Positions 8,470 to 37,807 of a stretch of DNA of 51,084 nt are shown here, piece by piece. Location of the stretch: positions 1-51,084 of the forward strand of contig NZ_FOTC01000011.1 in NCBI RefSeq assembly GCF_900114455.1. The letters run 5' to 3'. The position numbers and the translations under genes were made by a program. The notes under the pieces were generated by a model. The model did not search any database, was not told where the DNA came from, and saw only the letters and a program-made list of their open reading frames with translations. Numbering within the stretch: the first letter of the stretch is position 1; each line of letters starts with the position of its first letter. This DNA is from Halogranum rubrum (GTDB lineage: Archaea > Halobacteriota > Halobacteria > Halobacteriales > Haloferacaceae).

Positions 8470-8478
8470 CATATATGC
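8470..8478 (+). promoter_or_regulatory. TATA element of the ABC transporter operon
   Basis: CATATATGC lies 27-35 bases before the ATG at 8505. Another AT-rich element, AAATATAT, lies at 8453-8460. The two sit in the 148-bp divergent region with the HTH-10 regulator, which may bind here. This spacing is the reason for choosing the 8505 start over the ATG at 8475. Confidence 0.55.
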
Positions 8479-8504
8479 AATACGTTCTCATACGTCGCAG
8501 TGTA

Positions 8505-10193
8505 ATGACTGCACCCGACGACAGCGGGTTCACCGAGGACGACCTTAGCGGCCCAGTGATCGACCGACGAACGACCGTCAAACTGCTCGCAGCGGCCGGT
8601 GTGACCGGCCTCGCTGGTTGTACCGGCGGCGACGGCGGTAGTGGCGGTGACGGCGGCAGTACCGACAGCACGGAAGATACCCAGAGCGGCGACTCGACGG
8701 CGAGTAGCGGGTCGATGGGTGGCCGACTGAGCGCGGGTTGGTTCACCGGCAGTATCGACGTACTCGACCCACCGTACATCAGCGTCGGTCAGTACTTCCA
8801 AATCGCGGCCAACGTGTTCAACGGCCTCGTCACGCTCAAGAAAGACCTCACCGTGCGCGGTGACCTCGCGAAAGACTGGACCGTCGAGAACGACGGCAAG
8901 ACCATCCGGTTCAACCTGCGCGAGGGCGTCAAATTCCACAACGGCGACGAGTTCACCGCCGAGGACGTCAAGTACACCATCAACCGGACCATCAGCGAGG
9001 AGGCGCCGGCGGCGTCGAAACTCGGGACGCTGAAACCCGTCGACGAGGACGGCGTCGTCGTCGACGACGACTACACGGTGACGCTCAACTTCGAACAGGC
9101 GATGGCTCCCGCGCTCATCTACCTCACGCGCGGACCGGGGCGGGCGGCGACCATCGTCTCGAAGACGGCCATCGAGGAGATGGGTGCAGAGGAGTACAGC
9201 ATAAAGCCCGTCGGGACGGGCCCGTTCAAGGTGAGCGAACACGAAGTCGGGTCGAAACTCACCCTCGACAAGAACGAAGAGTACTTCGAGACCGACGACG
9301 ACGGAAACCAACTCCCCTACCTCGACGGCATCGACGTCAGACCCATCCCGGAGGCGGCGACCCTCGTCAACGCCCTTCGGAGCGGCGACATCGACTTCGC
9401 GAACCTCGTTCCACTACAGAACCTCGACCGCATCGAGGAGTCCGACGGCGTGAGCGCCTCGGTCGCACCGGGTGTGAACTGGTACGGGCTGGCGATGAAC
9501 CAGCGCCGCGACATCTTCAGTTCGCGGGAGGCCCGAATGGGCATCGCGAAGGTCATCGACAACGAGAAGTTCATCGAGACGGCGTACTTCGGCAACGCGC
9601 TCGCCGCGAAAGGTCCCATCAACAAGGCGACCAACTGGGTCTACCGCGAGGACAAACCCGACGACCAAGCCTACGACATGGAGGCCGGGAAACAGCTCAT
9701 CGAAGAGGCCGGCATCTCCGGTGAGAGCTTCTCTATCCTCGTCACGCAGGGCGACACCCGCGCGGCGAAGGCGATGCGTCAGCAACTCAACGCCGCCGGG
9801 TTCCAGGTCGAACTGGAGCAAGTTACCTCCTCGACGTACTGGGAGCGCTACGAGAAAGGCGACTACGACACCACCATCAGCGGCAGCGTCGGCGACCCGG
9901 ACCCCGACCAGTCGCTCTACAACTTCTACCGCCTACCCGACGAGGACGGCGTGTGGAACTGGGTGAACTTCCAGGACCAGCAGGTCCACGACCTGCTGTC
10001 CGAGCAACGGCAGGCACTGGACCGCGAGGAGCGCAAACAGATCCTTCAGCAGTTGGAGGACCGCCTCATCGAGCAGGTGCCGCACGCCTACCTCGTCCAC
10101 CAGAACGACATCGCTGCGCTCAGCGACTCGGTGTCGAACTTCACTCACATCCCGTTCATGCGTGACTTGTCACAGGTGATGTTGGACGGCTAG
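8505..10193 (+). CDS. ABC transporter substrate-binding lipoprotein, family 5 (peptide/oligosaccharide)
   Basis: Extracellular solute-binding protein of 562 residues that delivers peptides, nickel or oligosaccharides to the permeases encoded next. The N-terminus has twin arginines at 21-22 (DRRTTVKLLAAAG), a hydrophobic core and the lipobox LAGC with C39, indicating Tat export and lipid anchoring. A Gly/Ser/Asp linker follows. The body shows the family 5 signature NDGKTIRFNLREGVKFHNGD with TAEDVKYTINR. The start at 8505 gives a proper Tat signal and a leaderless promoter. First gene of a five-gene operon; the next begins one base after its stop codon. Nearby galactose genes make an oligosaccharide ligand possible, but this is unproven. 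Confidence 0.9.
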   Translation: MTAPDDSGFTEDDLSGPVIDRRTTVKLLAAAGVTGLAGCTGGDGGSGGDGGSTDSTEDTQSGDSTASSGSMGGRLSAGWFTGSIDVLDPPYISVGQYFQIAANVFNGLVTLKKDLTVRGDLAKDWTVENDGKTIRFNLREGVKFHNGDEFTAEDVKYTINRTISEEAPAASKLGTLKPVDEDGVVVDDDYTVTLNFEQAMAPALIYLTRGPGRAATIVSKTAIEEMGAEEYSIKPVGTGPFKVSEHEVGSKLTLDKNEEYFETDDDGNQLPYLDGIDVRPIPEAATLVNALRSGDIDFANLVPLQNLDRIEESDGVSASVAPGVNWYGLAMNQRRDIFSSREARMGIAKVIDNEKFIETAYFGNALAAKGPINKATNWVYREDKPDDQAYDMEAGKQLIEEAGISGESFSILVTQGDTRAAKAMRQQLNAAGFQVELEQVTSSTYWERYEKGDYDTTISGSVGDPDPDQSLYNFYRLPDEDGVWNWVNFQDQQVHDLLSEQRQALDREERKQILQQLEDRLIEQVPHAYLVHQNDIAALSDSVSNFTHIPFMRDLSQVMLDG

Positions 10194-10194
10194 C

Positions 10195-11151
10195 ATGCGA
10201 CAGTACATCCTCAAACGGGTCGCCCACGCGGTGTTCATCATGTGGCTCGTCGCCACCACCGTGTTCTTCGGCCTTCGCGCCATCCCGGGTGGCCCAGTGG
10301 CGACGATGCTCGGACAGGAGGCGACGCCCGCCGCCAAGCGCGCGCTCCGCGAGCAACTCGGTCTCGACCAGCCGTGGTACGTCCAGTACGTCGACTGGAT
10401 GGTCGACCTCGCGACGTTCAACTTCGGCCAGAGTCTCACCAACAACCAGGCCGTCTCAGACCTCGTGATGCAGGCCGCACCGCGGACGCTCTCTATCGGC
10501 ATCGTCGCCGTCGTCGTCGGCCTCAGCGTCGCGGTTCCGGCTGGCATCGTCAGCGCGACGCGGAAGCGCGAACCCGTGGACTACGTGGCGACTGTCGTCG
10601 CGTTCCTCGGTCTATCGATGCCGGCGTTCTTCGTCGGCATCCTGCTCGCGCTGGTCTTCGGCGTCTGGCTGGACCTCCTGCCAGTGTTCGGCTACGTCCC
10701 CATCTCGGAGGGTCTCGTCCCGTGGTTCGAGAGCATCCTCTTGCCGGGACTGGCCGTCGGACTCCCCTACGGCGCAGTCGTGATGCGGATGATGCGCTCG
10801 TCGCTGCTCGAAGTGCTCGACGAACCGTACATGAAGACGGCGCTCGCGAAGGGCGTGAACTCGCGCGTGCGACTCTACAAACACGCGCTCCAGAACGCGC
10901 TCATCCCCGTCGTCACCGTCGCGGGTATCCAACTCGCGCTCGTGCTCGTCGGGAGCGTCACGGTCGAACTGGTCTTCGGGATTCAGGGACTCGGCCGCCT
11001 GCTCGTCGACTCGATGCTCGACCGTAACTACCCCGTGACGCAGGTGGTCATCCTACTCGTCTCGGCCGTCCTCGTGTTCACGAACCTCGCCGTCGACTTG
11101 GCGTACACCGCCATCGACCCGCGCATCCGCTACGGGAGTGAGAGTGCATGA
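10195..11151 (+). CDS. ABC transporter permease, DppB type
   Basis: Integral membrane subunit (318 residues) of the family 5 peptide/oligosaccharide importer. It starts MRQYILKRVAHAVFIMWLVATT, the typical DppB/OppB first helix. The segment FFGLRAIPGGPVATMLG follows and six membrane helices in total are expected. The EAA-type coupling loop is visible as DEPYMKTALAKGVNSRVRLY, which contacts the ATPases. The C-terminal helix ends in LAYTAIDPRIRYG, also standard. The stop overlaps the next start (ATGA). Confidence 0.9.
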   Translation: MRQYILKRVAHAVFIMWLVATTVFFGLRAIPGGPVATMLGQEATPAAKRALREQLGLDQPWYVQYVDWMVDLATFNFGQSLTNNQAVSDLVMQAAPRTLSIGIVAVVVGLSVAVPAGIVSATRKREPVDYVATVVAFLGLSMPAFFVGILLALVFGVWLDLLPVFGYVPISEGLVPWFESILLPGLAVGLPYGAVVMRMMRSSLLEVLDEPYMKTALAKGVNSRVRLYKHALQNALIPVVTVAGIQLALVLVGSVTVELVFGIQGLGRLLVDSMLDRNYPVTQVVILLVSAVLVFTNLAVDLAYTAIDPRIRYGSESA

Positions 11152-12131
11152 GCACCGACTTCGGCGAGAACCGCGGCACCTACGGACCCGGCGAGATGCC
11201 GGCGGAGTACGAACAATCGGAAGCCGTCGAGGAGTACAAGAGCACACGACAGCGACTCGTCGAGGGCGTCCTCAGAGACAAACTCGCACTCTTCGGCGCA
11301 ATCGTCATCGTGCTCTTCGTCCTGACGGCGGCGCTCGCGCCGGTCATCGCCCCCTACGGCGAGGAAGAGACGTTCGGATTCATGAAGGAACCCGGAAGTT
11401 CCTCGCAGGCCGACGTCGACGGCGACGGCCAAGTCGAGCAGGTGTTCCATCCCCTCGGAACTGACTCGTTCGGCCACGACATCCTCACACGCCTCATCTA
11501 CGGTGCGAGGGTGTCGTTGCTGGTCGCGTTGGCGACACTCGCACTCGCGTTCACTCTCGGGACGGCCATCGGCATCCTCGCGGGCTACCACGGCGGGTGG
11601 ATAGATAGCCTGCTGATGCGCTACGTCGACTTCCAGTGGGCCTTTCCCGAGTTGATTCTCGGCGTCGCCATCATCGCACTCTCCGGCGGGTTGGGGGTGG
11701 TGAACGTCGTCATCGCCATCGGTATCGCGTACATCGACGACTTCGCCCGCCTCATCCGCGGGGAGGTGCTCTCGATTCGCGAAGAGGAGTACATCATGGC
11801 TGCCCAGACGGTGGGCATGTCCGACCGCCGCATCATGATCAAGGAGATCCTTCCAAACGCCGTCGCCCCGCTCATCGTGCAGGCGACGCTGATGATTCCG
11901 TTGGCGATTCTCGCGGAGGCCGGTCTGTCGTTCCTCGGTCTCGGCGTCAAACCGACGACGCCGACGTGGGGGCTGTTGCTCTCGGACGGGCGGCAGTTCA
12001 TCAGCGAGGCGTGGTGGATTTCGGTGATGCCCGGACTCGCCATCATGCTGACCGTCCTCGCGTTCAACATGTTCGGTGACGGCCTGCGCGACGCCTTCGA
12101 CATCGACGAAGGGGAGGTGGAGGCGCGATGA
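11148..12131 (+). CDS. ABC transporter permease, DppC type
   Basis: Second permease subunit (327 residues). It has the longer hydrophilic N-terminus usual in DppC, the first helix near 45-70 (LALFGAIVIVLFVLTAALAPV), a periplasmic-side loop with FHPLGTDSFGHDILTRLIYGAR (diagnostic of DppC/OppC) and the coupling loop EEEYIMAAQTVGMSDRRIM. It ends with FNMFGDGLRDAFD, the family's normal C-terminus. It overlaps both neighbours by four bases (ATGA), indicating translational coupling. Confidence 0.9.
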   Translation: MSTDFGENRGTYGPGEMPAEYEQSEAVEEYKSTRQRLVEGVLRDKLALFGAIVIVLFVLTAALAPVIAPYGEEETFGFMKEPGSSSQADVDGDGQVEQVFHPLGTDSFGHDILTRLIYGARVSLLVALATLALAFTLGTAIGILAGYHGGWIDSLLMRYVDFQWAFPELILGVAIIALSGGLGVVNVVIAIGIAYIDDFARLIRGEVLSIREEEYIMAAQTVGMSDRRIMIKEILPNAVAPLIVQATLMIPLAILAEAGLSFLGLGVKPTTPTWGLLLSDGRQFISEAWWISVMPGLAIMLTVLAFNMFGDGLRDAFDIDEGEVEAR

Positions 12132-13219
12132 GTTCGGACCGCGCGTCTCCCTCGACCAACGAGTCGAGCGACTCGACGACGGGGTCGAGCCTCCTCGAAG
12201 TCAAGAGTTTGAAGACGCAGTTCCCCACGTCGCGGGGGACCGTCACCGCAGTCGACGGCGTCGACCTGACGGTCGAACGCGGCGAGATTCTCGGTCTCGT
12301 CGGCGAATCAGGCTCTGGCAAGAGCGTCTTCGCCCAGAGCATCATGGGCATCGTCGACGACCCCGGGCGTATCGTCGACGGCGACATCCAGTTGGCTGGG
12401 GAGTCGCTGCTCGACAAGTCGGCTGGAGACCTCGAAGCGCTCCGCGGAGGGCAACTCTCGATGATCTTCCAGGACCCGATGAACAGCCTCAACCCGACGC
12501 TCACCGTCGGCGAGCAGATAGCCGAGACCGTCCGACTCCATCAGGACGTCGGCGAGTCCGTCTCGCTGCCCGCCGAACTCAAGCGCAAGCTGTTGGGGGC
12601 GACGAAAAATAGTGAGGCGTGGCGGCGCGCCATCGAGATGCTCGAAGCCGTCGAGATTCCGGAGGCCGAGAGCCGTGCGGGCGACTACCCCCACGAGTTC
12701 TCCGGCGGGATGCGTCAGCGCGCGATGATCGCGATGGCGCTCTCGTGTGAACCGGACCTGCTCATCGCCGACGAACCGACGACGGCGCTCGACGTGACCG
12801 TCCAGGCGCAGATTCTGGACGAACTCCGCGACCTGAAAGACACGTTCGACACCTCCATCCTGCTCATCACGCACGACCTCGCGGTCGTCTCGGAGGTCTG
12901 CGACCGCGTCGCCGTCATGTACGCGGGCGAAATTGTCGAACGGGCGAGCGCCCGCGAGTTGTTCTCGAACCCGCAACACCCCTACACGCAGGGACTCATC
13001 GCCAGCACGCCGCGACTGGACGCACCGGACGACGAACTCACGCCGATCCAGGGGAACGTCCCCGACCTCATCGATATCCCCTACGCCTGCCACTTCGCGC
13101 CGCGGTGTCCCGAAGCCGAACGCGAGTGTTTCGAGGTCGACCCCGACTTCCGCGAGGTGGGCGAGGGCGACCACGAGGCGGCGTGTCTCCGTCGTGGTCC
13201 GGAGGAGCGACGACTATGA
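12128..13219 (+). CDS. ABC transporter ATP-binding protein, DppD type
   Basis: ATPase subunit of 363 residues. Walker A GESGSGKS is at 59-66, the signature FSGGM at 191-195 and Walker B LLIADEP at 211-217. The C-terminal oligopeptide-transporter domain has the cysteine motif [17 protein letters not shown], which in related ATPases can bind an iron-sulfur cluster. The residue range is normal for DppD. Overlaps dppC and the next ATPase gene by four bases each. Confidence 0.9.
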
Positions 13220-14580
13220 CCAGACAGAGTAGACAGAGTCAGACGAAGCCGAGTCCGACCGACGAACCGACACGCGACTCGACCGCCGAGGGAGACGTCG
13301 TCCTCGAAGCGACGGGGCTGAAGAAGTACTTCGCCCAGTCGGACGGGTTTCTCGACCGACTGGTCGGCGAGACCGGGTCGGTGAAAGCGGTAGATGGCGT
13401 CGACCTCTCCGTTCGCGAGGGCGAGACGCTCGCCGTCGTCGGCGAGTCGGGGTGTGGCAAGAGTACGCTCGGACGTACCCTCTTGCAACATCACGCCGCC
13501 ACGGCGGGGAGCGTCGAGTACCGCGGTGACGAACTCACAGGCCTCTCGAACCGCGAACTCAGGACGTACCGGCGACACATCCAGATGGTGTTTCAGGACC
13601 CGTTGGCGTCGCTCAACCCGCGCCAGACGGTCGGGCAGATTCTGAAAGCGCCGATGGAGGTCCACGGAATCGGCGACTCCGACGCGGAGCGAACCGAGCG
13701 GGCACGTGACCTCTTAGAGCGCGTCGGCCTGAAGGCGAACCACATGGACCGGTACCCGAAACAGTTCTCGGGCGGGCAACAGCAACGTGTGGGTATCGCC
13801 CGGGCACTGACGCTCGAACCGGACGTCATCGTCGCCGACGAACCCGTCTCGGCACTCGACGTGAGCGTGCAGGCGCAGATTCTCAACCTACTGGAGGAGT
13901 TACAAGAGGAACTGGACCTCGCACTGCTGTTCATCACCCACGACCTCTCTGTCGTGCGGTATCTCGCCGACCGCGTCGCCGTGATGTATCTCGGCGAACT
14001 CGTCGAGACGGCACCGACCGACGACCTGTTCGACAACCCACAGCACCCCTACACGAAGTCACTGCTCTCGGCAGTGCCGCGTATCGACCCGGCGGCGCGG
14101 ACCGACAGAATCCTCCTCGAAGGGACGGTTCCATCACCCATCGACCCGCCGTCTGGCTGCCGATTCCACACGCGCTGTCCGGCGGTCGTGCCGCCGGACG
14201 ACTGGCCGGGCACCGACGACGCGTTCCGGCGAGCGTTCAGATTCCGGACGCGCGTCACCGCGGGCGAACTGGACCCGGAGGCGGCGAGAGACCGTCTGCG
14301 GGCCGAAGGGCACCCTACCGACGACGACCACGTCGTCGACCACCTCGTCGACGGGACGCTCACGGGCACACGTGAGAGCCTCCCGGACGACGCGGTCATC
14401 ATCATGGAAGAAGCGACTTCCGCTGTCGTCGCGGGCAACGACGAGCGAGCGGCGTCGATAGTCGAAGAGGCGTTTCCGTCGCCGTGCGCGAGCGATACGC
14501 CGACGACGGTTGCCGTCGACGCGGCGCACACGGCGGCGTGTCATCGTGTCGGACCGCACAGCAACTACAGCAATTCGTAG
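13216..14580 (+). CDS. ABC transporter ATP-binding protein, DppF type, with long C-terminal tail
   Basis: Second ATPase of the importer, 454 residues from the ATG that overlaps the dppD stop. An upstream frame extension to 13105 overlaps dppD and is rejected. Walker A GESGCGKS is at 76-83, FSGGQ at 184-188 and Walker B VIVADEP at 204-210. The family cysteine motif is [12 protein letters not shown]. After it the protein runs on for about 100 residues ([20 protein letters not shown] and a region with [20 protein letters not shown]) before ending in a His/Cys-containing tail. DppF proteins usually stop soon after the cysteine motif, so the tail is an insertion whose role is unknown. Confidence 0.88.
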
Positions 14581-15175: not shown

Positions 15176-16372
15176 ATGCAATCAGACACACAATCCACAG
15201 GACAAGAGACGATGAACACGAACCCGATTATCGACTACGAGTTGTTCGAGGTACCACCGCGATGGATGTTCCTGCGCGTCGAGACAGCCGACGGAACGGT
15301 TGGCTGGGGTGAGCCAGTCGTCGAGGGCCGTTCACACACGGTTCGCGCCGCCGTCGAGGAACTGATGGACAACTATCTCGTCGGCGAACCGGCCAACGCC
15401 ATCGAGGACCACTGGCAGACGATGTATCGCGGCGGGTTCTATCGCGGCGGACCGATTCTGATGTCGGCCATCGCCGGCATCGACCAAGCGCTGTGGGACA
15501 TCAAAGGCAAGTCGCTCGACGCGCCCATCTACGAACTCCTCGGCGGAGCAGCACGCGACAGCATCCGCGTCTACCAGTGGATCGGCGGCGACCGACCCTC
15601 CGAAGTCGCCGACGAAGCGGCACAGAAAGTCGACGCGGGCTTCTCCGCACTGAAGATGAACGCGACGGAGGAGTTAGAGCGCGTCGACAACCCCTCTGCC
15701 GTCGAAGACGCCGTCGACCGACTGCGGAAGGTCAGAGACGCCGTCGGCGACGAAGTCGACATCGGCGTCGACTTCCACGGACGTGTGACGAAACCGATGG
15801 CGAAGCGTCTCGCGAAGGCGCTCGAACCCTACGACCCCATGTTCATCGAGGAACCGGTGCTCCCGGAACACAACGATGCGCTGCCGGACATCGCCGCGCA
15901 CACGACGATTCCCATCGCGACCGGCGAGCGGATGTACTCTCGATGGGACTTCAAGGAGGTCTTCGAAGACGGCGCAGTCGACGTGATTCAACCGGACCTC
16001 TCGCACGCCGGCGGCATCACCGAGGTCAAGAAGATTGCCAGTATGGCCGAAGCCTACGACGTCGCACTCGCGCCGCACTGCCCGCTGGGACCCATCGCAC
16101 TCGCGTCCTGTATCCAAGTGGACGCCTGTACGCCGAACGCGCTCATCCAAGAACAGAGTCTGAACATCCACTACAACGAGACGTCCGACGTCCTCGACTA
16201 TCTGGAAGACGTGACGGTGTTCGACTACGACGACGGCTACGTCTCTATCCCCGACGGGCCGGGACTCGGCATCGACATCAACGAGGAGCACGTCCGCGAA
16301 CAAGCCGAGAAGACTGTCAACTGGCACAACCCCATCTGGCGGCACGAAGACGGGAGCATCACCGAGTGGTAA
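15176..16372 (+). CDS. dgoD: D-galactonate dehydratase
   Basis: Enolase-superfamily enzyme of 398 residues that dehydrates D-galactonate to 2-keto-3-deoxygalactonate, in the cytoplasm. The match to enterobacterial DgoD is long and clear, for example PPRWMFLRVETADG, YRGGPILMSAIAGIDQALWD, QPDLSHAGGITE and the end WRHEDGSITEW. Ligands and catalytic residues are D199 and H201 (VDFHGR), E225 (FIEEP), E251 (GERM) and H301 (LAPHCPLGP). The first ATG has a GGGAGA element before it; an ATG at 15212 fits the shorter bacterial N-terminus and is an alternative. It is followed by the GH42 gene and, on the other strand, an aldolase, which supports galactose catabolism. Confidence 0.9.
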   Translation: MQSDTQSTGQETMNTNPIIDYELFEVPPRWMFLRVETADGTVGWGEPVVEGRSHTVRAAVEELMDNYLVGEPANAIEDHWQTMYRGGFYRGGPILMSAIAGIDQALWDIKGKSLDAPIYELLGGAARDSIRVYQWIGGDRPSEVADEAAQKVDAGFSALKMNATEELERVDNPSAVEDAVDRLRKVRDAVGDEVDIGVDFHGRVTKPMAKRLAKALEPYDPMFIEEPVLPEHNDALPDIAAHTTIPIATGERMYSRWDFKEVFEDGAVDVIQPDLSHAGGITEVKKIASMAEAYDVALAPHCPLGPIALASCIQVDACTPNALIQEQSLNIHYNETSDVLDYLEDVTVFDYDDGYVSIPDGPGLGIDINEEHVREQAEKTVNWHNPIWRHEDGSITEW

Positions 16373-16486: not shown

Positions 16487-18511
16487 ATGTCGATAGGCGT
16501 CTGCTACTTCCCGGAGCACTGGCCAGAGGAGCGACTCGAAGCCGACATCGAGCAGATGGCGGCGGCGGGGCTGGAATACGTTCGAATGGGTGAGTTCGCC
16601 TGGTCGAAGTTCGAACCGGAACCGGGCGAGTACGACTTCGAGTGGCTGGACCGCGCCGTCTCGCTCGTCGGAGACCACGGGATGCAGGCGGTGTTGTGTA
16701 CGCCGACGGCGGCCCCGCCGAAGTGGCTCGTCGACGAGTATCCCGACGTTCGACAAGAGGAACCAGACGGGACGGTCCGAGACTACGGTGGTCGCCGACA
16801 CTACTGTTTCAACTCGCCCGTCTATCGTCGCGAGAGCCGTCGAATCGTCGAGAAGCTAGCGAACCACTTCGCCGACCATCCGGCCGTCGCCGGATGGCAA
16901 ACCGACAACGAGTACGGCTGTCACGGGACGTTACACTGTTACTGCGACGACTGCGCGAGCGCGTTCAGAGACTGGTTACGCGCGACGTACGACGACGTCG
17001 ACGACCTGAACGACTGTTGGGGAACCGGCTTCTGGAGTCAGGACCTGAACTCGTTCGCGCAGGTCGACCCGCCGCGGCACACGGCCGCCGACCACCACCC
17101 CTCGCGGTTGTTGGACTACGACCGGTTCACCAACGACGGCGTCGTCGCCTACAACCGACTCCAAGTCGAGGCGCTCCGCGAGGCGAACGACGAGTGGTTC
17201 GTGACGCACAACTTCATGTCTCACGACGGCCTGAACGCCTACGACGTGGCCGAAGACCTCGACTTCGCGTCGTGGGACTCCTACCCGACGGGACACGTCC
17301 AAGCGCATCACGAGTCGGTGTCGGCCGACGAGTTCCGCGCCGGCAACCCGGACAACCTGGGCATCGACCACGACATCTACCGGAGCATGACCGACGCACC
17401 ACACTGGGTGATGGAGCAACAGCCGGGCGACATCAACTGGCCGCCGTACTCGCCGCAGCCCGCCGACGGTGCGATGCGACTGTGGGCGCACTACGCTGTC
17501 GCCCACGGTGCGGACGTCGTCGCGTACTTCCGCTGGTGACGGTGCCTGATGGGACAAGAGCAGTACCACAGCGGCCTGCTCAGACAGGACGGCGAACCCG
17601 ACGCGGGCTACCACGATGCGGTCGAAGCGGCGGCAGACCTCGACCGACTCGCGGCGGCGACGGACGACGACAAAGCCGACGCGGCGACAGGCGACGTCGC
17701 ACTCCTCCACGACTACGACAACCTCTGGGCACTGGACAAAGAGCCGAACACGCCCGAGTTCGACTACTGGCAACATCTGGAGACGTACTACGCGGCGCTC
17801 CGCCGTCGGTCGGTCACCGTCGACGTCGTCTCTCCAACGACACCGCTCGCCGACTACGAGGCAGTCGTCGCGCCGACGCTCTACCTCACGGACGACGAAC
17901 GCGCCGAGACGCTGGAGTCGTACGTCGACGGCGGCGGTGAACTACTGCTGACGATGCGGTCCGGCGTGAAAGACCCGTACAACAAACTGCACGACGCCCC
18001 GCAACCCGGACCGCTCCGGTCGCTCGTCGGTGCCACCGTGGACCAACACGAGAGCGTCCCCGAGTCGTTGGCCAATACGGTCGACTACGCGGGCCGGCAG
18101 TTCGACAGTCACGTCTGGAACGAGTGGCTGGTTTCCGACGACGACACGGACGTACTCGGTCGGTACGACGACGGTCCCGCCGACGGGACGGCCGCCGTCG
18201 TCCGGAGCGAGCGAGGAACGGGGTCGACGACGTACGTCGGTACGTGGCCGAAACCGGCGTTCGCAGACGCACTCGTCGGTGACCTACTCGACCGAACTGG
18301 CGTGGAGACGACAGACCCACTTCCCGACCACGTGCGGTTCACCCGGCGGGGCGACCTGACGTGGGTCGCGAACTTCGGTGGCGAGGCCCTCACCGTCGAC
18401 GCACCCGCAGACGTCACGTGGGAACTCGGCGGCGAGACGGTCGGCGCCTGCGACGTGTCGGTGACGGACGCGGCCCCGTCTGCGCTGTCGATTCGCGAGG
18501 AGTCTCGATAG
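16487..18511 (+). pseudogene. bgaH: GH42 beta-galactosidase interrupted by an in-frame TGA
   Basis: The gene would encode a 674-codon beta-galactosidase close to haloarchaeal BgaH, which splits beta-galactosides to galactose. The frame is intact from 16487 to 18511 except for one TGA at 17537-17539 (codon 351). The two halves are in the same frame, so this is a nonsense change and not a frameshift. The sequence around it reads AYFRW, stop, RCLMGQEQYHSGLL; in known BgaH the stop position is Arg (FRWRRC), so CGA to TGA is the simplest explanation. The acid/base E142 (QTDNEYGCH) and nucleophile E310 (WVMEQQPGDINW) lie in the first half. The second half (from 17540) carries the remaining barrel end, the trimerisation-type domain and a C-terminal beta domain. 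A GTG or ATG restart (17549 ATG) could make a separate C-terminal fragment. Pseudogene unless read through. Confidence 0.85.
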
Positions 18512-18666: not shown

Positions 18667-19320
18667 TTACTCGGCGCGAGCAGTCTCGACGGCGTCGACG
18701 AACTCGGCGGCGCGTGCTTCGACGGCGTCCATGTCGCCACGCTCGATGGCCTCGTAGTCGACGAGTGCCGACCCGGCACCGACGGCGACGGCACCGGCGT
18801 CGAAGTAGTCGGCCGCGTTGTCCGCCGACACGCCACCGGTCGGCATGATGGGGATGTCACCGAGCGGTCCGCGGAGTGCGCCGACGTGGTCGGGGCCGAC
18901 GACCGACGCGGGGAACAGTTTCAGGATGTCCGCACCGGCTTCCAGCGCGTCGACGGCTTCCGTCGGCGTCATGACGCCCGGGATACAGACCACCTGTGCT
19001 CGATTACAGCTGTCGACGACCGCTTCGTCGAAGTTGGGCGCGAGGACGAACTCTGCGCCGGCGTCGATTGCGCGTCTCGCCGTCGGTTCGTCGAGAACGG
19101 TTCCCGCGCCGACGACGGCGTCAGTCTCCGCCAGTGCGTCGTCGATTGCCGCAATCATCTCTGCGTAGTCTCCGGCGTCAGCCGTGACTTCAAGTGCGGT
19201 GACGCCGCCCGCGTGAATCGCCTCCGCGACGTCGACGATTTGGTCTCTGGGGATTCCACGGAGCACAGCGACGACGCCGCTGTCGATGAGCTGCTGCTGG
19301 ACGGACTGCTTTCTCGTCAT
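18667..19320 (-). CDS. KDPG/KDPGal-type aldolase (Eda family)
   Basis: Class I aldolase of 217 residues that splits 2-keto-3-deoxy-6-phospho-gluconate or -galactonate into pyruvate and glyceraldehyde 3-phosphate. R21 in VAVLRGI, E44 in ALEVT and the Schiff-base K134 in DILKLFPAS are visible, with PTGGVS near the C-terminus binding phosphate. Start ATG is at 19318-19320; upstream in-frame codons lack coding character. It converges on the broken beta-galactosidase (155-base gap). With dgoD nearby the galactose isomer is the more likely substrate, but no kinase or galactose dehydrogenase is seen in the window. Confidence 0.88.
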   Translation of the reverse strand: MTRKQSVQQQLIDSGVVAVLRGIPRDQIVDVAEAIHAGGVTALEVTADAGDYAEMIAAIDDALAETDAVVGAGTVLDEPTARRAIDAGAEFVLAPNFDEAVVDSCNRAQVVCIPGVMTPTEAVDALEAGADILKLFPASVVGPDHVGALRGPLGDIPIMPTGGVSADNAADYFDAGAVAVGAGSALVDYEAIERGDMDAVEARAAEFVDAVETARAE

Positions 19321-19339
19321 GAATCGCGCTTCGCGTGAC

Positions 19340-19381
19340 GCCGAGAAAAAGTTACCCCGTGACGTGGAGGGAAGCCACGGG
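19340..19381 (-). promoter_or_regulatory. Aldolase promoter with inverted repeat
   Basis: On the minus strand an AT-rich CTTTTTCTC (reverse of 19343-19351) sits 23-31 bases before the start at 19320, a TATA-like position. Just upstream is the inverted repeat CCCGTG (19356-19361) and CACGGG (19376-19381), a candidate regulator site. Confidence 0.35.
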
Positions 19382-19514
19382 CGAAGGAGAGAACTGTCGA
19401 GCGACGAGAGACGACCGACTCCCACCTCGTAGATAGAGTAAGTTGGAATAAGTCGGGGGCGGGTGCAGTACACGAGGATTGAACAGGGCGTGTCGGGAGC
19501 GACCGAGAAGAGAC

Positions 19515-19559
19515 TGTTCAAGAACTGTAGACATTCTACAATTTTTAGAAATCGTTCCG
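19515..19559. repeat. 9-bp-unit array A
   Basis: Consecutive 9-mers ACTGTAGAC, ATTCTACAA, TTTTTAGAA (19524-19550), all variants of ATTGTARAA or its reverse complement. They include the perfect inverted repeat TGTAGA-CAT-TCTACA (19526-19540). It lies in the 429-bp gap between the aldolase and DUF1028 genes. See the related arrays at 28652, 48561, 49933 and 50092. Confidence 0.6.
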
Positions 19560-19749
19560 AGAAACAGTTTGTATCCGCTCTGAGGGAAAAGAGAGATGTC
19601 GTCGAAGAGAGGATACCGCTCACGTGGGTTCGGGACACGAGAGTCGTTCGTCTCGTCGTGTGTTTCGATTCGGATTTTTTCCCACTCCTAATTTGTACAA
19701 GTTGTTGCGTCTGCTGTATCCGCAGTAGGATGGTCGTGAGCGGTGTCGT

Positions 19750-29036: not shown

Positions 29037-30323
29037 ATGATCTATGATGAGGTAGAGACCGCGTCACGGGAGGACCTCGAAGACCTACAGAGTGAACGCC
29101 TCCGGGAGACGGTGGCGCACGCCTACGACCACGTCGAGTACTATCGCGAGGCACTGGACGAGGCGGGCGTCTCGCCCGACGATATCGAGAGCGTCGACGA
29201 CATCTCGTCGCTCCCCTTCACGAAGAAAGAGGACTTCCGCGACGAGTACCCCGACGGGATGTTCGCCGTCGACTGGGCGGAGGTCAACCGTATCCACGCC
29301 TCCTCCGGAACGACGGGAAAGCCGAAAGTCGTCGCCTACACGGACGAGGACCTCGGCGTCTGGCGCGAGGTGATGGCCCGGTCGCTCTACGCGGCGGGCG
29401 TCCGCGAGGACCACGTCGTCCAGAACGCCTACGGCTACGGCCTCTTCACCGGCGGTCTGGGTTTCCACGACGGGATTCAGGAACTGGGTGCCTGCGTCAT
29501 CCCGACCGGCGGCGGCAACACGGCGAGACAGATAGACATGCTCCAAGACCTCGAGAGCGACGTGCTCTGCTGTACGCCCTCCTACTGTCTCTACCTCGCC
29601 GAAGCGGCAGAGAAGCGCGGTATCGACGTACGCGACCTCCCGCTCTCGACAGTCGTCATCGGGGCAGAACCCTTCACCGACCCGATGCGCGAGGAGATAG
29701 AGGAAGCACTGGGCGTCACCGCCGTCGACGTCTACGGCCTTTCGGAGATTATCGGCCCGGGCGTCTCCATCGAGTGCGCCGACGCACAGGACGGCCTCCA
29801 CATCTGGGAGGACCACTTCTACCCCGAAGTCGTCGACCCGACCACGGGCGAAGTCTTACCCGAAGGTGAAGAGGGCGAACTCGTGTTGACGACGCTCTCG
29901 AAGCAGGCCCTTCCGGTACTTCGCTACCGCACGGGCGACATGACGACGCTGAACTACGAGACCTGTGAGTGCGGGCGGACCGCCGTCCGCATGGGCAACG
30001 TCACCGGCCGCGCCGACGACCTGCTCATCGTCCGCGGCGTCAACGTCTATCCCAGCCAGATAGAGGAGGTCATGCTCGAACTCGACGAGGTGGCCCCGCA
30101 CTACCGCATCGACCTGCGGCGCGAGGACAGCCTCGACCGCCTCGAACTGACGGTCGAACACCACGAGGAGTACCACGGGTCGACCGAGTCACTCCGCGAG
30201 GAAGTACAGGCCAAACTGGAGAGCGTCCTCGACGTGAAACCCGACAGTCTCGACATCGTCCCGCCGGGAGAGATCGGCCGCACCGAGGTCGGAAAAGTCC
30301 AGCGCGTCTTCGACCACCGCTGA
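29037..30323 (+). CDS. Phenylacetate-CoA ligase-like enzyme (PaaK family)
   Basis: Adenylate-forming ligase of 428 residues that would activate an aryl or fatty acid with ATP and CoA. The ATP-binding motif ASSGTTGKPK is at 88-97, followed by the PaaK-type blocks AYGYGLFTGGLGFHDGIQELG, VYGLSEIIGPGVSIEC and the C-terminal AMP-binding RTGDM with GRADDLLIVRGVNVYPSQIEE. The final domain has the catalytic Lys in GRTEVGKVQRV. The start at 29037 follows a TATA element. A PaaI-like thioesterase lies next on the opposite strand. Phenylacetate is only one candidate substrate; no ring-hydroxylating paa genes are seen here. Confidence 0.85.
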   Translation: MIYDEVETASREDLEDLQSERLRETVAHAYDHVEYYREALDEAGVSPDDIESVDDISSLPFTKKEDFRDEYPDGMFAVDWAEVNRIHASSGTTGKPKVVAYTDEDLGVWREVMARSLYAAGVREDHVVQNAYGYGLFTGGLGFHDGIQELGACVIPTGGGNTARQIDMLQDLESDVLCCTPSYCLYLAEAAEKRGIDVRDLPLSTVVIGAEPFTDPMREEIEEALGVTAVDVYGLSEIIGPGVSIECADAQDGLHIWEDHFYPEVVDPTTGEVLPEGEEGELVLTTLSKQALPVLRYRTGDMTTLNYETCECGRTAVRMGNVTGRADDLLIVRGVNVYPSQIEEVMLELDEVAPHYRIDLRREDSLDRLELTVEHHEEYHGSTESLREEVQAKLESVLDVKPDSLDIVPPGEIGRTEVGKVQRVFDHR

Positions 30324-30382
30324 CACCGACTGACGACGAGTTTTTCGAACTCCGAGAACGCTGCCGTCCGGATATTAGACGG

Positions 30383-30889
30383 TCAGGGTCGGTAGACTCG
30401 CCCGCGGAAGGTGGCGAGACGTTCGCCGTCGCCTTCGGTGGTGAGGACGACTTCGTACTCGGCGGTGCGTCTGGTTAGGTGCGTCTCCGTCGCCGTCGCG
30501 AGAATGGTCGAACCGACTTCGACTGCCGACAGGTAGGAGATGTTCGTCTCTAGTGCGACGGCCGTCTCACCGTGGCTGTTGGAGGCGGCGGCGAACGCGG
30601 CGTCGGCGAGCGAGTAGATAGCCCCGCCGTGCGGCGTTCCGTGGAAGTTCACAAGGTCGTCGGTGACGGTCAACGCCGTCGTCGCCGACCCGGGTTCGAG
30701 CGCCCGGAGTTCGATGCCGAGCGTCGCACAGTAGGGGTCCGATTCGATACGTTCGCGGACCGCCGGAGCCACCGGCGTCGGCGTCTCCGCACTCGTCGTG
30801 GGTCCCGCCTCGTGTGTGCGAATCTCGCGAGAGTCCCCGTTCGCAGCGTCTCCACCGTCCCCAGAGTCGCCATCTCGTGGGTCGCTCAT
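30383..30889 (-). CDS. PaaI-like hotdog thioesterase
   Basis: Acyl-CoA thioesterase of 168 residues. About 45 N-terminal residues form a low-complexity acidic head (DGDSGDGGDAANGDS). The hotdog domain then shows LVNFHGTPHGGAIYSLADAA, with the catalytic Asp/Gly region of the PaaI family, and ALETNISYLSAVEVGSTILA. PaaI enzymes hydrolyse dead-end aryl-CoA esters, which fits the neighbouring CoA ligase. Its start overlaps the stop of the VOC-like mini-gene (ATGA), so the two are coupled. Confidence 0.83.
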   Translation of the reverse strand: MSDPRDGDSGDGGDAANGDSREIRTHEAGPTTSAETPTPVAPAVRERIESDPYCATLGIELRALEPGSATTALTVTDDLVNFHGTPHGGAIYSLADAAFAAASNSHGETAVALETNISYLSAVEVGSTILATATETHLTRRTAEYEVVLTTEGDGERLATFRGRVYRP

Positions 30890-31038
30890 TCGACCCCTCC
30901 GCGTCCTCCGAGGGGGACGTTGACGGCGCGGATATCTGCGGTTTCGAGGCTGTCGACGAGGGCTGACACCGCCTCAGGAACCGACTCCACAGCGATACCG
31001 ACGTGGTCGACCCGAATCGGCGTGTGGTGTGTGGACAT
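30886..31038 (-). CDS. Mini VOC-like protein (50 aa), possibly truncated
   Basis: ATG at 31036-31038, stop overlapping the PaaI start by four bases. The 50 residues MSTHHTPIRVDHVGIAVESV and on to IRAVNVPLGGRGGVE look like the first beta-alpha-beta unit of a glyoxalase/methylmalonyl-CoA epimerase (VOC) domain, with metal-ligand-type His in VDHVGIAV. A full VOC module needs about 120 residues. It may be a remnant or a dimerising half unit. The overlap with paaI suggests it is still translated. Confidence 0.55.
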   Translation of the reverse strand: MSTHHTPIRVDHVGIAVESVPEAVSALVDSLETADIRAVNVPLGGRGGVE

Positions 31039-31257
31039 GGTTGATGACTCGGTGCTGTCGTCTTAACCGTATTTACCGAACCGTTCGTGTCGAATCTACG
31101 ATCCGTCACCGGGACGACGACTCCCCCGCGTTGGCAGTTCTGTAAAGAAATGCCCCGGAACGCCGTCGTTCTTTCGCCGAAATCGCCACTTTCCCGACGA
31201 CTCTGTGATATCGTATCCCACACAATAGTTAATACAGATTGGAGAGCATGTTCGGCT

Positions 31258-31419
31258 ATGGACTCCGCCAGTCCGACCGCCGACCGCATCGTTGGCAGTG
31301 AACACGTCTCTACCCACGGAGGGCTGACACTGGCGGAGAAATTTTTCGCGATATCCACAGCACGCTGGACGAGCGGCCGACTCGACGGGAGAGCAACCGA
31401 CGGAGCCGGCCACGTCTAA
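31258..31419 (+). CDS. Possible leaderless small protein (53 aa)
   Basis: ATG at 31258 has a TATA-like AGTTAATACAG (31227-31237) 21-31 bases upstream, so a transcript probably starts at or near it. The peptide MDSASPTADRIVGSEHVSTH, then GGLTLAEKFFAISTARWTSG and a polar tail, is not recognised. It could be a real small protein or simply the 5' leader of the E1 transcript. It ends 14 bases before the GTG at 31433. Confidence 0.35.
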   Translation: MDSASPTADRIVGSEHVSTHGGLTLAEKFFAISTARWTSGRLDGRATDGAGHV

Positions 31420-31576
31420 CCACGGACCCATCGTGTCCGACGACGACACGTCGCCCGACGACTCGACACCGTCGGACGCGACGAACACGAGCACGAACGA
31501 CGTGCCGAACGAACGAATCGACCGACGACAGCATAGCAACCACCGACCGGACAGCCCAAACCACGAATCACTCCCC

Positions 31577-32695
31577 ATGAGCGTACTCGACCACTCAACC
31601 GACGAATCGACGCGGTATCAGCTCTTGACCCTCGACGGGTCGAGAACCGACGAACCACTCCCCATCGACGTCGACGACGACACCCTGGTGGGTATCTACG
31701 AACACATGCGACTGGCGCGCCGCTTCGACGAGCGGGCGGTCAGCCTCCAACGACAGGGACGCATCGCCACCTATGCACCCCTCGCAGGCCAAGAAGCCTC
31801 GCAGGTCGCCAGCGCCTACGCACTGGACGCCCAAGACTGGCTCTACCCGACCTATCGAGACCACGCCGCGAAGGTGGTTCGCGGCGTCCCCATCGAGTCA
31901 CTCTTGCTCACGATGATGGGCCACGGCGACGGCTATCGGGTTCCGGAGGGCGTCAACGTCATGCCGGAGTATATCCCCATCGCGACGCAGATTCCGCAGG
32001 CGGCGGGCGCGGCGATGGCCTCGCGCTACCTCGACGAGGATAGCGTCTACTGCTGCTACTTCGGTGACGGCGCAACCAGCGAGGGCGACTTCCACGAGGG
32101 ATTGAACTTCGCGGGCGTCTTCGACGCTCCAGTCGTCTTCTTCTGTAACAACAACCAGTGGGCTATCTCCGTCCCTCGGGAGAAGCAGACGGCCAGCGAG
32201 ACCATCGCTCAGAAGGCCGACGCCTACGGCTTCGAGGGAATCCAAGTCGACGGGACGGACCCGCTGGCCGTCTACGTCGCCACCCGAGAGGCCGTCGAGA
32301 AGGCGCGTAACCCGGGACCGGGTGAGACCCGACCGACGCTCATCGAGGCCGTCCAATACCGCTTCGGCGCACACACCACCGCCGACGACCCGGACGTCTA
32401 CCGCGAAGGTGTCCCCGACGAGTGGCGTGACCGCGACCCCATCCCACGCTACGAGACGTTCCTCCGCGAGACGGGACGACTCGACGACGAGACGAAAGCC
32501 GAAATCGAAGACCGCATCGAATCCCGTCTCGCAGACGCGATCGAGACGGCAGAGTCGACGACGCCCGAACCCGTCTCGGCGATGTTCGAGCACGTCTACG
32601 CCGAACCGACGCCCGAACTCGACCGCCAACGCGAGGAACTGGAGCGACTCGTCGAGCGCTATGGAGAAGATGCCTTCCGGAGGGACCACTCGTGA
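31577..32695 (+). CDS. 2-oxoacid dehydrogenase E1 component, alpha subunit
   Basis: Thiamine-diphosphate-dependent decarboxylase subunit of 372 residues, part of a pyruvate, acetoin or branched-chain 2-oxoacid dehydrogenase. The thiamine motif spans 163-193: GDGATSEGDFHEGLNFAGVF to CNNN. Earlier YPTYRDHAAKVVRG and TQIPQAAGAAMASRYL are typical. ATG 31577 is chosen over the in-frame GTG at 31433, whose 48-residue extension (acidic and Asn/Ser rich) looks non-domain. The beta subunit gene overlaps by four bases. No E2 or E3 gene follows. Confidence 0.88.
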   Translation: MSVLDHSTDESTRYQLLTLDGSRTDEPLPIDVDDDTLVGIYEHMRLARRFDERAVSLQRQGRIATYAPLAGQEASQVASAYALDAQDWLYPTYRDHAAKVVRGVPIESLLLTMMGHGDGYRVPEGVNVMPEYIPIATQIPQAAGAAMASRYLDEDSVYCCYFGDGATSEGDFHEGLNFAGVFDAPVVFFCNNNQWAISVPREKQTASETIAQKADAYGFEGIQVDGTDPLAVYVATREAVEKARNPGPGETRPTLIEAVQYRFGAHTTADDPDVYREGVPDEWRDRDPIPRYETFLRETGRLDDETKAEIEDRIESRLADAIETAESTTPEPVSAMFEHVYAEPTPELDRQREELERLVERYGEDAFRRDHS

Positions 32696-33699
32696 GTCTC
32701 TCGTCCGCGGACTCCGACCAACTCACGCTCGTCGACGGCGTCCGTGAGGCCCTCCGGAGAGAGATGGCCGACGACGACCGGGTGCTCGTCCTCGGCGAGG
32801 ACGTCGGGAAGAACGGCGGCGTCTTCCGTGCGACGGGCGGCCTCTACGACGAGTTCGGTTCGGCACGCGTCATCGACACGCCGCTGGCGGAATCCGGCAT
32901 CGTCGGGACGAGTATCGGGATGGCGACGAAGGGACTCCGTCCCGTCGCCGAGATGCAGTTCATGGGGTTCATCTACCCCGCGTTCGACCAACTCGTCTCC
33001 CACGCTGCCCGCCTTCGAAACCGCAGCAGAGGACGATACACCTGTCCGATGGTCGTCCGCGCGCCCTACGGTGGCGGCATCCGCGCACCCGAACACCACT
33101 CCGAGTCGATGGAGGCGCTGTTCGCCCACCAACCGGGGCTGAAGGTGGTCGTCCCCTCGACGCCGAGCGACGCCTACGGTCTCCTCCGGGCGTCGATTCG
33201 TGACCCCGACCCCGTGGTCTTCCTCGAACCGAAGCGCATCTACCGGTCCTCCCGCGAACCGGTCGACTTCGACGCGGCACTCCCCGAGTTGGGCGAGGCC
33301 GTCGTCCGCCGCGAGGGGTCCGACGTCTCGGTGTTCACCTACGGCGCGATGGTCCCGGAGACGCTGGAGGCCGCAGAGATGGCCAAGGAGGACCTCGGAA
33401 TCAGCGTGGAGGTGGTCGACCTCCGGACGCTCTCCCCGCTGGACCGCGAGACGATGGTCGACTCGCTGAAGCGGACGGGCCGCGCCGTCGTCGTCCACGA
33501 AGCGCCGCTCTCGGGCGGACTCGGCGGCGAAGTCGTCAGCGCGCTGCAAGAGGAGGGACTCTACCACCTCGAAGCGCCCATCAAGCGCGTCGGTGGGTAC
33601 GACACGCCCGTGCCGCTGCACGCGCTGGAGGACTTCTACCTACCCGCACCGGTGCGCATCGCCGAGGGCATCCGCGAGACGGTCGAAGCCGAAGCCTGA
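32692..33699 (+). CDS. 2-oxoacid dehydrogenase E1 component, beta subunit
   Basis: Transketolase-like E1 beta subunit of 335 residues, forming the alpha2-beta2 decarboxylase with the preceding protein. Typical blocks are VLVLGEDVGKNGGVFRATGG, DTPLAESGIVGTSIGMATKG, MQFMGFIYPAFDQLVSHAAR and the C-terminal VDLRTLSPLDRETMVDSLKR. It starts with GTG at 32692 overlapping the alpha stop (GTGA). The sequence is closest to branched-chain/pyruvate type E1 beta; the actual oxoacid is not known. Next is a thioesterase gene with its own promoter. Confidence 0.88.
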   Translation: MSLSSADSDQLTLVDGVREALRREMADDDRVLVLGEDVGKNGGVFRATGGLYDEFGSARVIDTPLAESGIVGTSIGMATKGLRPVAEMQFMGFIYPAFDQLVSHAARLRNRSRGRYTCPMVVRAPYGGGIRAPEHHSESMEALFAHQPGLKVVVPSTPSDAYGLLRASIRDPDPVVFLEPKRIYRSSREPVDFDAALPELGEAVVRREGSDVSVFTYGAMVPETLEAAEMAKEDLGISVEVVDLRTLSPLDRETMVDSLKRTGRAVVVHEAPLSGGLGGEVVSALQEEGLYHLEAPIKRVGGYDTPVPLHALEDFYLPAPVRIAEGIRETVEAEA

Positions 33700-33717
33700 G
33701 TTCGAGAGCGCCGACCC

Positions 33718-33726
33718 TATTTTTAA
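33718..33726 (+). promoter_or_regulatory. TATA element of the thioesterase gene
   Basis: TATTTTTAA ends 25 bases before the ATG at 33751, indicating a leaderless transcript separate from the E1 genes. Confidence 0.6.
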
Positions 33727-33750
33727 GACGAGCGGGGGTGACACCCGCAC

Positions 33751-34134
33751 ATGGACATCGAGGAGTTCTTCGAGACGATGCCGTTCGCCGACCTCTTGGG
33801 CGTCGAAATCACCGAAGCCGCAGACGGCCACGCCGAAGGACACATCGAGATGCGCGACGAGTTGTCGTGGAACACAGAGCGACAGATGGCCCACGGCGGC
33901 GTGACGTTCACCCTCGCCGACACGGTGGGTGGGGCGGCACTCGTCTCGCTCGTCGACCAACCCGTCCCGACCATCGACATGCGCATCGACTATCTGAGCG
34001 CCGGAACCGGTGACCTCCAAGCCGTCGCAGACGTAGTGCGACTCGGCGGCGACATCGGCGTCGTCGACGTCGACGTGTTCACCGAGGACGACGAACGCGC
34101 CGCGCAGGTTCGCGGCGTCTACAAGACGGGGTAG
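33751..34134 (+). CDS. PaaI-like hotdog thioesterase
   Basis: Single-domain thioesterase of 127 residues. WNTERQMAHGGVTFTLADTV carries the HGG turn and catalytic Asp of the hotdog PaaI/YbgC group, and TIDMRIDYLSAGTGDLQAVA the outer strands. It is a second thioesterase in the same 5-kb stretch as the CoA ligase. It probably hydrolyses an aryl- or acyl-CoA made nearby, but specificity cannot be told. Confidence 0.85.
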   Translation: MDIEEFFETMPFADLLGVEITEAADGHAEGHIEMRDELSWNTERQMAHGGVTFTLADTVGGAALVSLVDQPVPTIDMRIDYLSAGTGDLQAVADVVRLGGDIGVVDVDVFTEDDERAAQVRGVYKTG

Positions 34135-34184
34135 GCAGAGAGAGGGAGAGAGCGAATTTTTTGCGCGCCGACCGGCCGGTAGGC

Positions 34185-34370
34185 CGGTGGGTGGGGTGGA
34201 GGGGAGCGAAAAGAGGGTGGGAAGCGGAGAGGAGGGGGTGTGGGGGAGGAGAGGTGAAGGGAGGGAGTCGAGGTCACTCGAGTCGAGCGGCGCTATCGTC
34301 GACGACGACAGACCACAGAGAGATGTGGAGAGGGGGGTGTGGGGGGAGAGGCGAAGAGAGATGCGTACAG
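34185..34370 (+). repeat. Polypurine, G-run-rich tract upstream of the flavin protein gene
   Basis: The plus strand is almost pure purine in blocks such as GGGTGGGGTGGAGGGGAG (34188-34206), GAGGAGGGGGTGTGGGGGAG (34231-34250) and GAGAGGGGGGTGTGGGGGGA (34328-34347). Repeated runs of four to six G allow G-quadruplex or triplex formation. A matching tract lies after the gene at 34907-34975. Confidence 0.7.
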
Positions 34371-34387
34371 GCGGCGAACAGACAGCG

Positions 34388-34906
34388 ATGACGAACACGG
34401 CGGACAGAGACGGCGGTCAGACCGAGCGAGAGATGACTCGGAGCAGACCAGAGACCGAAGAGAGCTACGGGATTCCCGAGGAGAGCGACGGACTGCTCCC
34501 GTGGTCGTTCGTCGAGGAGACGCTGGCCGACGACCGGAACTACTGGGTGTCGACGACACTGCCCGACGGTCGACCGCACGCTCGACCGGTCTGGGGCGTC
34601 TGGGTTGACGGGACGATGCACTGCGGCGGCGGCGAACGAACGCGGTGGGTCCGGAATCTCGCACAGAACCCCGCGATTACGATTCACCGCGAAGACGCCG
34701 AGACGGTTGTCATCGTCGAGGGGACGGCCGAGCGATACATGGAAGGCGAGGCGGACCCCGAGATACTGGAGCGCATCGACGACGCCTACGAGGAGAAGTA
34801 CGGGATTCGACACGGAACGCCCGTCTTCGCGATTCGACCCGAGCGTGTGCTCGCGTGGAGCGACTATCCGAGCGACGCGACGCGGTGGACGTTCGGTAGC
34901 GAGTGA
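34388..34906 (+). CDS. Pyridoxamine 5'-phosphate oxidase-like flavin/F420-binding protein
   Basis: 172-residue member of the split-barrel PPOX superfamily, which bind FMN or coenzyme F420. The core is FVEETLADDRNYWVSTTLPD, GRPHARPVWGVWVDGTMHCG, WVRNLAQNPAITIHRED and FAIRPERVLAWSDYPSDATR. ATG at 34388 is chosen because the frame before it is a G-rich low-complexity tract; an ATG at 34433 is also possible. It lies between two polypurine tracts. The substrate is unknown. The next gene, a luciferase-like oxidoreductase on the opposite strand, may use a related cofactor. Confidence 0.8.
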   Translation: MTNTADRDGGQTEREMTRSRPETEESYGIPEESDGLLPWSFVEETLADDRNYWVSTTLPDGRPHARPVWGVWVDGTMHCGGGERTRWVRNLAQNPAITIHREDAETVVIVEGTAERYMEGEADPEILERIDDAYEEKYGIRHGTPVFAIRPERVLAWSDYPSDATRWTFGSE

Positions 34907-34975
34907 GCGAGGGGGGTGCGGGGGGAGTAGAGGAAGAGAGGAGTTGGGGAGGGTGCGGGAGGGGAAGAGGAGTCG
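34907..34975 (+). repeat. Polypurine, G-run-rich tract downstream of the flavin protein gene
   Basis: Blocks GAGCGAGGGGGGTGCGGGGG (34907-34926) and GTTGGGGAGGGTGCGGGAGG (34942-34961) resemble the tract at 34185-34370. It separates two convergent genes. A transcription-terminating or structured-DNA role is possible. Confidence 0.65.
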
Positions 34976-34979
34976 AACT

Positions 34980-35984
34980 TCAGGCGAGGTTCGGCGCAAC
35001 CTCGCTACCGAGACGCTCGATACACTCGGCCATCGCGTCGGTGCCGATGCCGGGGTGGTACGTTCGGAAGATGAAGTGCACGTCGTCGCCGAGCGCCTCG
35101 TGGTAGGTTTCGAGTTCCTCGGTCACCTGCTCGGGCGTGCCGAAGATGGCCTGCTCTTTCAGTTCCTTCTTTCGTTCGTCGGAGAGTTCGGTGACTTCCT
35201 CGCCGGAGAAGATTTCGGCGTACCGGCGCTGGATGTAGAGATAGCCGTCTTTCATCGTGTTCCACGCCTCCTCGCGGGAGTCGCCGACGAACCCGTGTTG
35301 GAGGACGTAGATCGTAAAGTCGTCGTCGAGTCCTTCCTTCTCACGCACCTGCCGGATGTCGTCGACGCGTTTCTTCACGCCGCCGACAGAGAGCGACGAG
35401 GGCGCACACCACCCGTCGGCAGTGCGGGCGGCGCGGCGAACGGCGGGCTTGGCCCCGCCGCCGAGCATGATGGGCAAGTGGCCGTCGGGTTTGGGCGTGA
35501 CGGAGGTGTCGGGCGAGACGTCGTTGAACGGCGACTCGTGGCCGATGGGACCGTCGGACCACGCGCCTCTGAGGAGTTCAACGGTGTCGGCGAGACGTTC
35601 GACGCGTTCCTCCTCGGGGACGCCGAACTCCGCGAACTCGCGTGGGTTCGACCCGATGGCGAGACCGAGCGTGAGTCGGTTGTTCGAGACGAGGTCGACG
35701 GTGGCGGCGTCTTCAGCCAGCCTGACGGCGTTGTAGAGCGGCGCGAGCGCGATACAGGAGCCAATCTCTATCTCCTCGGTCTCGGCGGCCAGCGCGCCCA
35801 GTGCGGGCATCACGCCGGAGAGGTAGCCGTCGTCGAGGAAGTGGTGTTCGGAGACCCACGCGCTGTCGAGGCCGGCGTCCTCGATTGCTCGGGTGAGGGT
35901 CAGCATCTCGTCGTAGATGGCGCTCATCGACCGGTCGTCGTCCGGGCGGCGCTGGCAGGTGAACAAGCCCGTGCCGAGTTTCAT
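34980..35984 (-). CDS. Luciferase-like (LLM class) flavin/F420-dependent oxidoreductase
   Basis: 334-residue TIM-barrel oxidoreductase, either FMN- or F420-dependent. The start MKLGTGLFTCQRR, the catalytic-site strand AWVSEHHFLDDGYLSG, SCIALAPLYNAVRLAEDAAT, RLTLGLAIGSNPREFAEFGV and IMLGGGAKPAVRRAARTADG are characteristic. The last part ending GTPEQVTEELETYHEALGDD matches the family. The start ATG is 35982-35984 with no other candidate nearby. It converges on the flavin-binding protein gene. Substrate unknown. Confidence 0.87.
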   Translation of the reverse strand: MKLGTGLFTCQRRPDDDRSMSAIYDEMLTLTRAIEDAGLDSAWVSEHHFLDDGYLSGVMPALGALAAETEEIEIGSCIALAPLYNAVRLAEDAATVDLVSNNRLTLGLAIGSNPREFAEFGVPEEERVERLADTVELLRGAWSDGPIGHESPFNDVSPDTSVTPKPDGHLPIMLGGGAKPAVRRAARTADGWCAPSSLSVGGVKKRVDDIRQVREKEGLDDDFTIYVLQHGFVGDSREEAWNTMKDGYLYIQRRYAEIFSGEEVTELSDERKKELKEQAIFGTPEQVTEELETYHEALGDDVHFIFRTYHPGIGTDAMAECIERLGSEVAPNLA

Positions 35985-36490
35985 GGTCGAGAGTCGGATG
36001 GGTGGAACTTAACGGTTTATCAGGGATTAGGCTGAGTCGAGTGTGAAGCCAGCCGTGGTCGGAACTGGAGAGATAGCAGGAACACGACCACGACCACTTG
36101 ACAGACGAGACACCCACACCCTCCCCAACCGATTCGCTCACTCGCTTGCGCTCGTTCACTCATCCCTCGCGTGTGTGGTTCGCGGCCGTCGCCGCGAAGC
36201 CACGCGCCACGATGGTTGGTCAGTCCACGGGCGCTGGCCGCGCGACGGCGCGGCCGAAATGGGGGAGGGTAGGCGCGGTTCGGTGCTGTCCTCGGCGGAC
36301 TTGCAAAGGGCGAGTGCTCTCGTCGGTTCCCGGAGGAAGTAAGCACCGCAACTGAGTGAAGCGAGGTGAGGAGCACAACGACTCCCGGAACCACGAGAGC
36401 GCGAGGGCTTTGCCGAGTAGCCCGTACCGTCGCTGATTCCACGCTACAGTTTCGCACCTGACCTAAAACTGGAAATGCCAAAAATCCCAA
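35985..36490. other. 506-bp intergenic region with a dispersed repeat
   Basis: Between the LLM oxidoreductase start and the M24 hydrolase stop. It carries repeat copy 1 (36096-36170) and further GC-rich palindromic sequence such as GGCCGCGCGACGGCGCGGCC (36236-36255). No gene is visible. Confidence 0.5.
36096..36170. repeat. Dispersed intergenic repeat, copy 1
   Basis: Shares with 39269-39341 the blocks CTTGACAGACGAGAC, CCACACCCTCCCCAACCGAT and TCATCCCTCGC, in the same order, with a variable CTC-rich middle. Such ...CTCCCCAACCGATTCGCTC... sequences look like the intergenic repeats I associate with haloarchaeal genomes. Confidence 0.65.
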
Positions 36491-37765: not shown

Positions 37766-37807
37766 GCTCTCTCGTCCGCAGTCCGGTCTCTTAATTCCTC
37801 CCTCATG

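Follow-up and report, generated by a model that had tools for sequence, protein, structure and literature searches.

Among the structures in the PDB, the beta-galactosidase BgaH of Halorubrum lacusprofundi (6LVW) is the best match to both fragments of the interrupted GH42 gene described here, and the two are similar in length and alike in domains and active-site residues. The gene is located in the window, by which we mean the whole stretch of DNA analysed (contig C5 of the Halogranum rubrum assembly, 51,084 bases), and differs from the haloarchaeal BgaH enzymes in being interrupted by a TGA at codon 351. The GH42 enzyme of Thermus thermophilus A4 (PDB 1KWG) provides a second reference. Its catalytic residues Glu141 and Glu312 as well as Glu360 and His363 all have counterparts in the window frame, but the counterparts of Glu360 and His363 are cut off from the rest by the stop. 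Both of these are among the galactose-binding residues of the Thermus enzyme, and domain A of a relative comprises residues 1-390 while domain B is a site of trimer contacts (PMC7602713).

Two interrupted genes invite comparison. The bgaH gene of Halosimplex aquaticum (L086) exemplifies single-lesion pseudogenes with a paralogue and likewise carries one lesion in a gene that is otherwise well kept, although it changes frame near residues 313-320 without a stop there, whereas the window gene has a TGA. The recoded alpha-L-fucosidase gene fucA is, like the window gene, an interrupted archaeal glycosidase gene. It represents a frameshift for which recoding by -1 frameshifting has been shown (PMC8211752), whereas nothing at the window gene points to a recoding signal.

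The BgaH-type GH42 frame extends over positions 16487-18511 on the forward strand, with 675 codons from an ATG at 16487 to a TAG at 18509-18511. Reading of the sequence revealed exactly one internal stop, the TGA at 17537-17539, and no frameshift, in agreement with an earlier note on this DNA that described a 675-codon GH42 gene in a single frame with a lone in-frame TGA. Because of this codon the gene does not have the one uninterrupted open frame of a GH42 beta-galactosidase. The profile for the catalytic domain (PF02449) nevertheless matches positions 16502-17647 with 487 bits (curated cut-off 21 bits), covering positions 1-375 of 376 in the profile and spanning the TGA, while the match to the trimerisation domain (PF08532; 190 bits) is located in the part downstream of the stop.

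Alignment to 1KWG and 6LVW placed the catalytic residues Glu142 (16910-16912) and Glu310 (17414-17416) 5' of the stop, in an N-terminal fragment of the catalytic domain that is 350 amino acids in size and ends in the premature TGA (16487-17539, forward strand). The galactose-binding residues Glu358 (17558-17560) and His361 (17567-17569), identified by alignment to 1KWG, are located 3' of it. They belong to a C-terminal part that runs from an ATG at 17549 to position 18511 on the same strand and comprises the end of the barrel, PF08532 and the C-terminal domain, as judged from the sequence, the profile match and the alignment. The earlier statement that both catalytic glutamates precede the stop is thus true, but it could mislead, since truncation removes the galactose-binding Glu/His pair, domains B and C and the final portion of the barrel.

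The premature TGA (17537-17539, forward strand) replaces a conserved Arg codon. In the alignment of homologous loci, codon 351 encodes Arg in 108 and Gln in 3 of the 111 non-self rows, which include some loci twice and hence represent fewer independent cases, and none of these relatives has a stop at this codon. CGA is among the Arg codons found at the site and is separated from TGA by one C-to-T step, so that both the replacement of a conserved Arg and the single-base route to it were borne out as previously described. CGA is likely to be the ancestral codon at 17537. As is typical of a pseudogene, the TGA at codon 351 is a disabling lesion in a gene that is intact in relatives.

We also examined the gene for other signs of decay. 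In a comparison of 56 haloarchaeal proteins, the window gene departs from only 2 of 167 near-invariant positions (conserved in 95% or more of the other proteins of the set), namely the stop itself and L592F. The other proteins, intact across 600 or more residues, show 0 to 11 such departures. Using the Nei-Gojobori method, the dN/dS ratios against four near relatives were estimated to 0.15-0.20 for the part preceding the stop and 0.34-0.41 for the part following it, as compared to 0.11-0.23 and 0.23-0.41, respectively, between intact relatives; such pairwise ratios mostly reflect shared history and show no more than that selection acted on the gene until recently, and the near-invariant positions are more telling. 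The CAI values of 0.73 before and 0.67 after the stop are inside the range of the genes in the genome, and GC3 is normal on both sides (0.85 and 0.82). Thus, with 2 of 167 departures and dN/dS ratios like those of intact genes, no relaxed selection or further lesions were seen in the gene, as a very recent lesion would predict. That selection, codon usage and GC3 are normal on both sides indicates that the lesion is either very young or not real. Dating of the change is precluded by the distance to the nearest relatives, whose full-length identity is only about 74%.

Taken together, it is probable that one nonsense change has only very recently inactivated the GH42 beta-galactosidase gene, with a nonfunctional N-terminal product and a loss made tolerable by a second GH42 gene. 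The simplest such change, a CGA codon turned into TGA at 17537, where the base is presumably real, would disable the gene. Translation would end after 350 residues and leave a barrel with its end missing and with neither the galactose-binding pair nor the trimerisation domain, while some ribosomes might restart at the ATG at 17549 and produce the C-terminal part. Judging from the sequence, the 350-residue product should be inactive because the barrel end, the galactose-binding Glu/His pair and the trimerisation domain are all encoded after the stop.

The second GH42 gene is located at positions 362559-363707 of contig C6 and is intact in a frame of 696 codons. Its identity to the window copy is about 54%, and it is thus an old paralogue. 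This copy would make the loss tolerable and presumably compensates for it, provided that the substrates of the two enzymes overlap. Most likely, no new mechanism is involved, and either a spare copy of the enzyme was lost very recently in the ordinary way or one base of the sequence is wrong. For annotation purposes, the locus would best be labelled a disrupted GH42 gene, with the intact C6 copy as the probable beta-galactosidase gene of this archaeon. Should the stop be real, gene loss has been caught here at its first step, and the locus offers a simple place to test the rescue of a split enzyme by haloarchaeal termination-reinitiation.

The strongest competing explanation, which we judge to be clearly less probable but still worth serious consideration, is that the organism itself carries an intact gene and that the TGA arose as an error during sequencing or assembly. 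A single-base difference suffices for this reading, signs of relaxed selection are absent throughout the gene, and a gene without other decay is equally expected under a base-calling error. Furthermore, the genome is a draft assembly of 4.57 Mb in 17 contigs (completeness 99.99%), in which the window constitutes a 51-kb contig of its own. On the other hand, no near-identical second copy of the site that could have served as the source of a mis-merge was found in the genome, and no interrupted gene was recognised in a census against a congener (G002). The census included 256 best alignments with 92,474 aligned codons and covered 1.5 of the 4.57 Mb, restricted to genes with relatives in the compared parts of G002. 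Conserved shared genes undergo real loss less readily than accessory ones. By the rule of three, false stops should occur at less than roughly 3 per 92,000 codons, which amounts to about 2% when scaled to a gene as long as this one. With zero interrupted genes the assembly seems to be good, and a single base error in the window is still compatible with this result.

The internal stops that appeared in the census were interpreted as artefacts. Those near the 5' end preceded the likely start of stop-to-stop query frames, and others originated from queries on the wrong strand or in the wrong frame. The largest apparent interruption (C8:227179-229575) spans two genes, both of which read intact, and the remaining apparent stops were judged by frame length or by eye.

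A different possibility, which we consider improbable, is that the locus encodes two working chains, such that translation stops at the TGA and reinitiates at the ATG at 17549, and the fragments assemble into an active or partly active enzyme. The ATG pointed out earlier is indeed present, at a distance of only 9 nt from the stop. Ten nt 5' of it and overlapping the stop is the sequence GGTGA (17534-17538, forward strand), a possible reinitiation signal that matches the Shine-Dalgarno core. Both fragments are well conserved, and termination-reinitiation is common in Haloferax volcanii, where Shine-Dalgarno motifs, which haloarchaea use for this process, aid it to a variable degree (PMC6728339). 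However, the ATG encodes a Met that is also present in intact relatives and is therefore not a new start, and GGTGA is the automatic product of a Trp codon followed by TGA. The break does not coincide with a domain boundary but splits the TIM barrel, with the nucleophile on one side and the galactose-binding Glu and His on the other, and domain A extends to residue 390 in a relative (PMC7602713). The C-terminal chain alone is without a catalytic Glu, so that activity would need assembly in trans across the split barrel. It is highly improbable that the nonsense change has given rise to a working two-chain GH42 enzyme, in which termination-reinitiation at 17549 supplies the C-terminal chain and the barrel is completed in trans, even though reinitiation is more plausible than readthrough.

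Readthrough of the TGA into a full-length enzyme, be it as Arg via a suppressor tRNA, as Trp or programmed, is very doubtful despite the conserved downstream frame, since TGA, found at the end of 102 of 167 conserved genes, is the most used stop codon, the tRNA-Sec model yielded nothing above the gathering score in the genome (best 40.7 versus 47), no UCA anticodon was present among the tRNAs examined (part of 64 candidates), the 111 non-self rows contain no stop at the corresponding codon, and, according to a review, selenocysteine and pyrrolysine are the only cases of readthrough demonstrated in archaea (PMC8211752). Selenocysteine insertion and suppressor-tRNA readthrough were rejected on the tRNA-Sec score and the anticodons examined, and programmed readthrough is unlikely. 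Of the three options listed in the earlier note, recent loss and sequencing error stay viable.

The GH42 gene has a patchy distribution in the family, with a match in 47 of 170 genomes and no bgaH match in either of the two congeners searched. Short or split GH42 pieces in four genomes (G033:C18:438582-439633, G080:C3:223843-224001, G082:C2:361020-361220 and G093:C1:1803301-1803654) look like decayed copies. In the complete genome of Halosimplex aquaticum XZYJT29, the reading frame of the bgaH homologue shifts within residues 313-320 (L086:4930-4990), close to a run of C, so that this is either another haloarchaeal GH42 gene with a disruption or a mistake in the record. Loss of the gene seems to recur.

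Directly upstream of the GH42 gene is a gene for an enolase-superfamily dehydratase (MR_MLE; galactonate dehydratase-like; 15176-16372), and positions 8475-14580, also on the forward strand, encode an oligopeptide/dipeptide-type ABC transporter with a binding protein, two permeases and two ATPases, the substrate of which is probably a galactoside or oligosaccharide. Downstream and on the opposite strand are the genes for a KDPG/KHG aldolase (18667-19638) and a DUF1028 protein. In plasmid records, bga is found near dgoD, in Haloferax alexandrinus also together with kdgK1 and eda. From its gene content, the locus reads as a cluster for galactoside uptake and degradation. A phage or plasmid origin of the window copy was rejected, with no phage match and a best plasmid homologue of about 74% identity over 67% of the query.

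Further to the right, positions 29070-47331 of the window match the first 20 kb of contig C7 in G002 with identities of about 60-73%, the matches being spread over several frames and in part on the wrong strand, indicating that this part of the window is shared within the genus. Elsewhere in the genome, contig C13 contains a tRNA array at positions 160615-164451 (L240, L262, L263 and L267), in which 15 or more tRNA genes share a strand, including those for Trp(CCA), Leu, Ser, Glu and Lys. None of the tRNAs read in this array has a UCA anticodon. Dense tRNA arrays can be carried by large viruses or megaplasmids.
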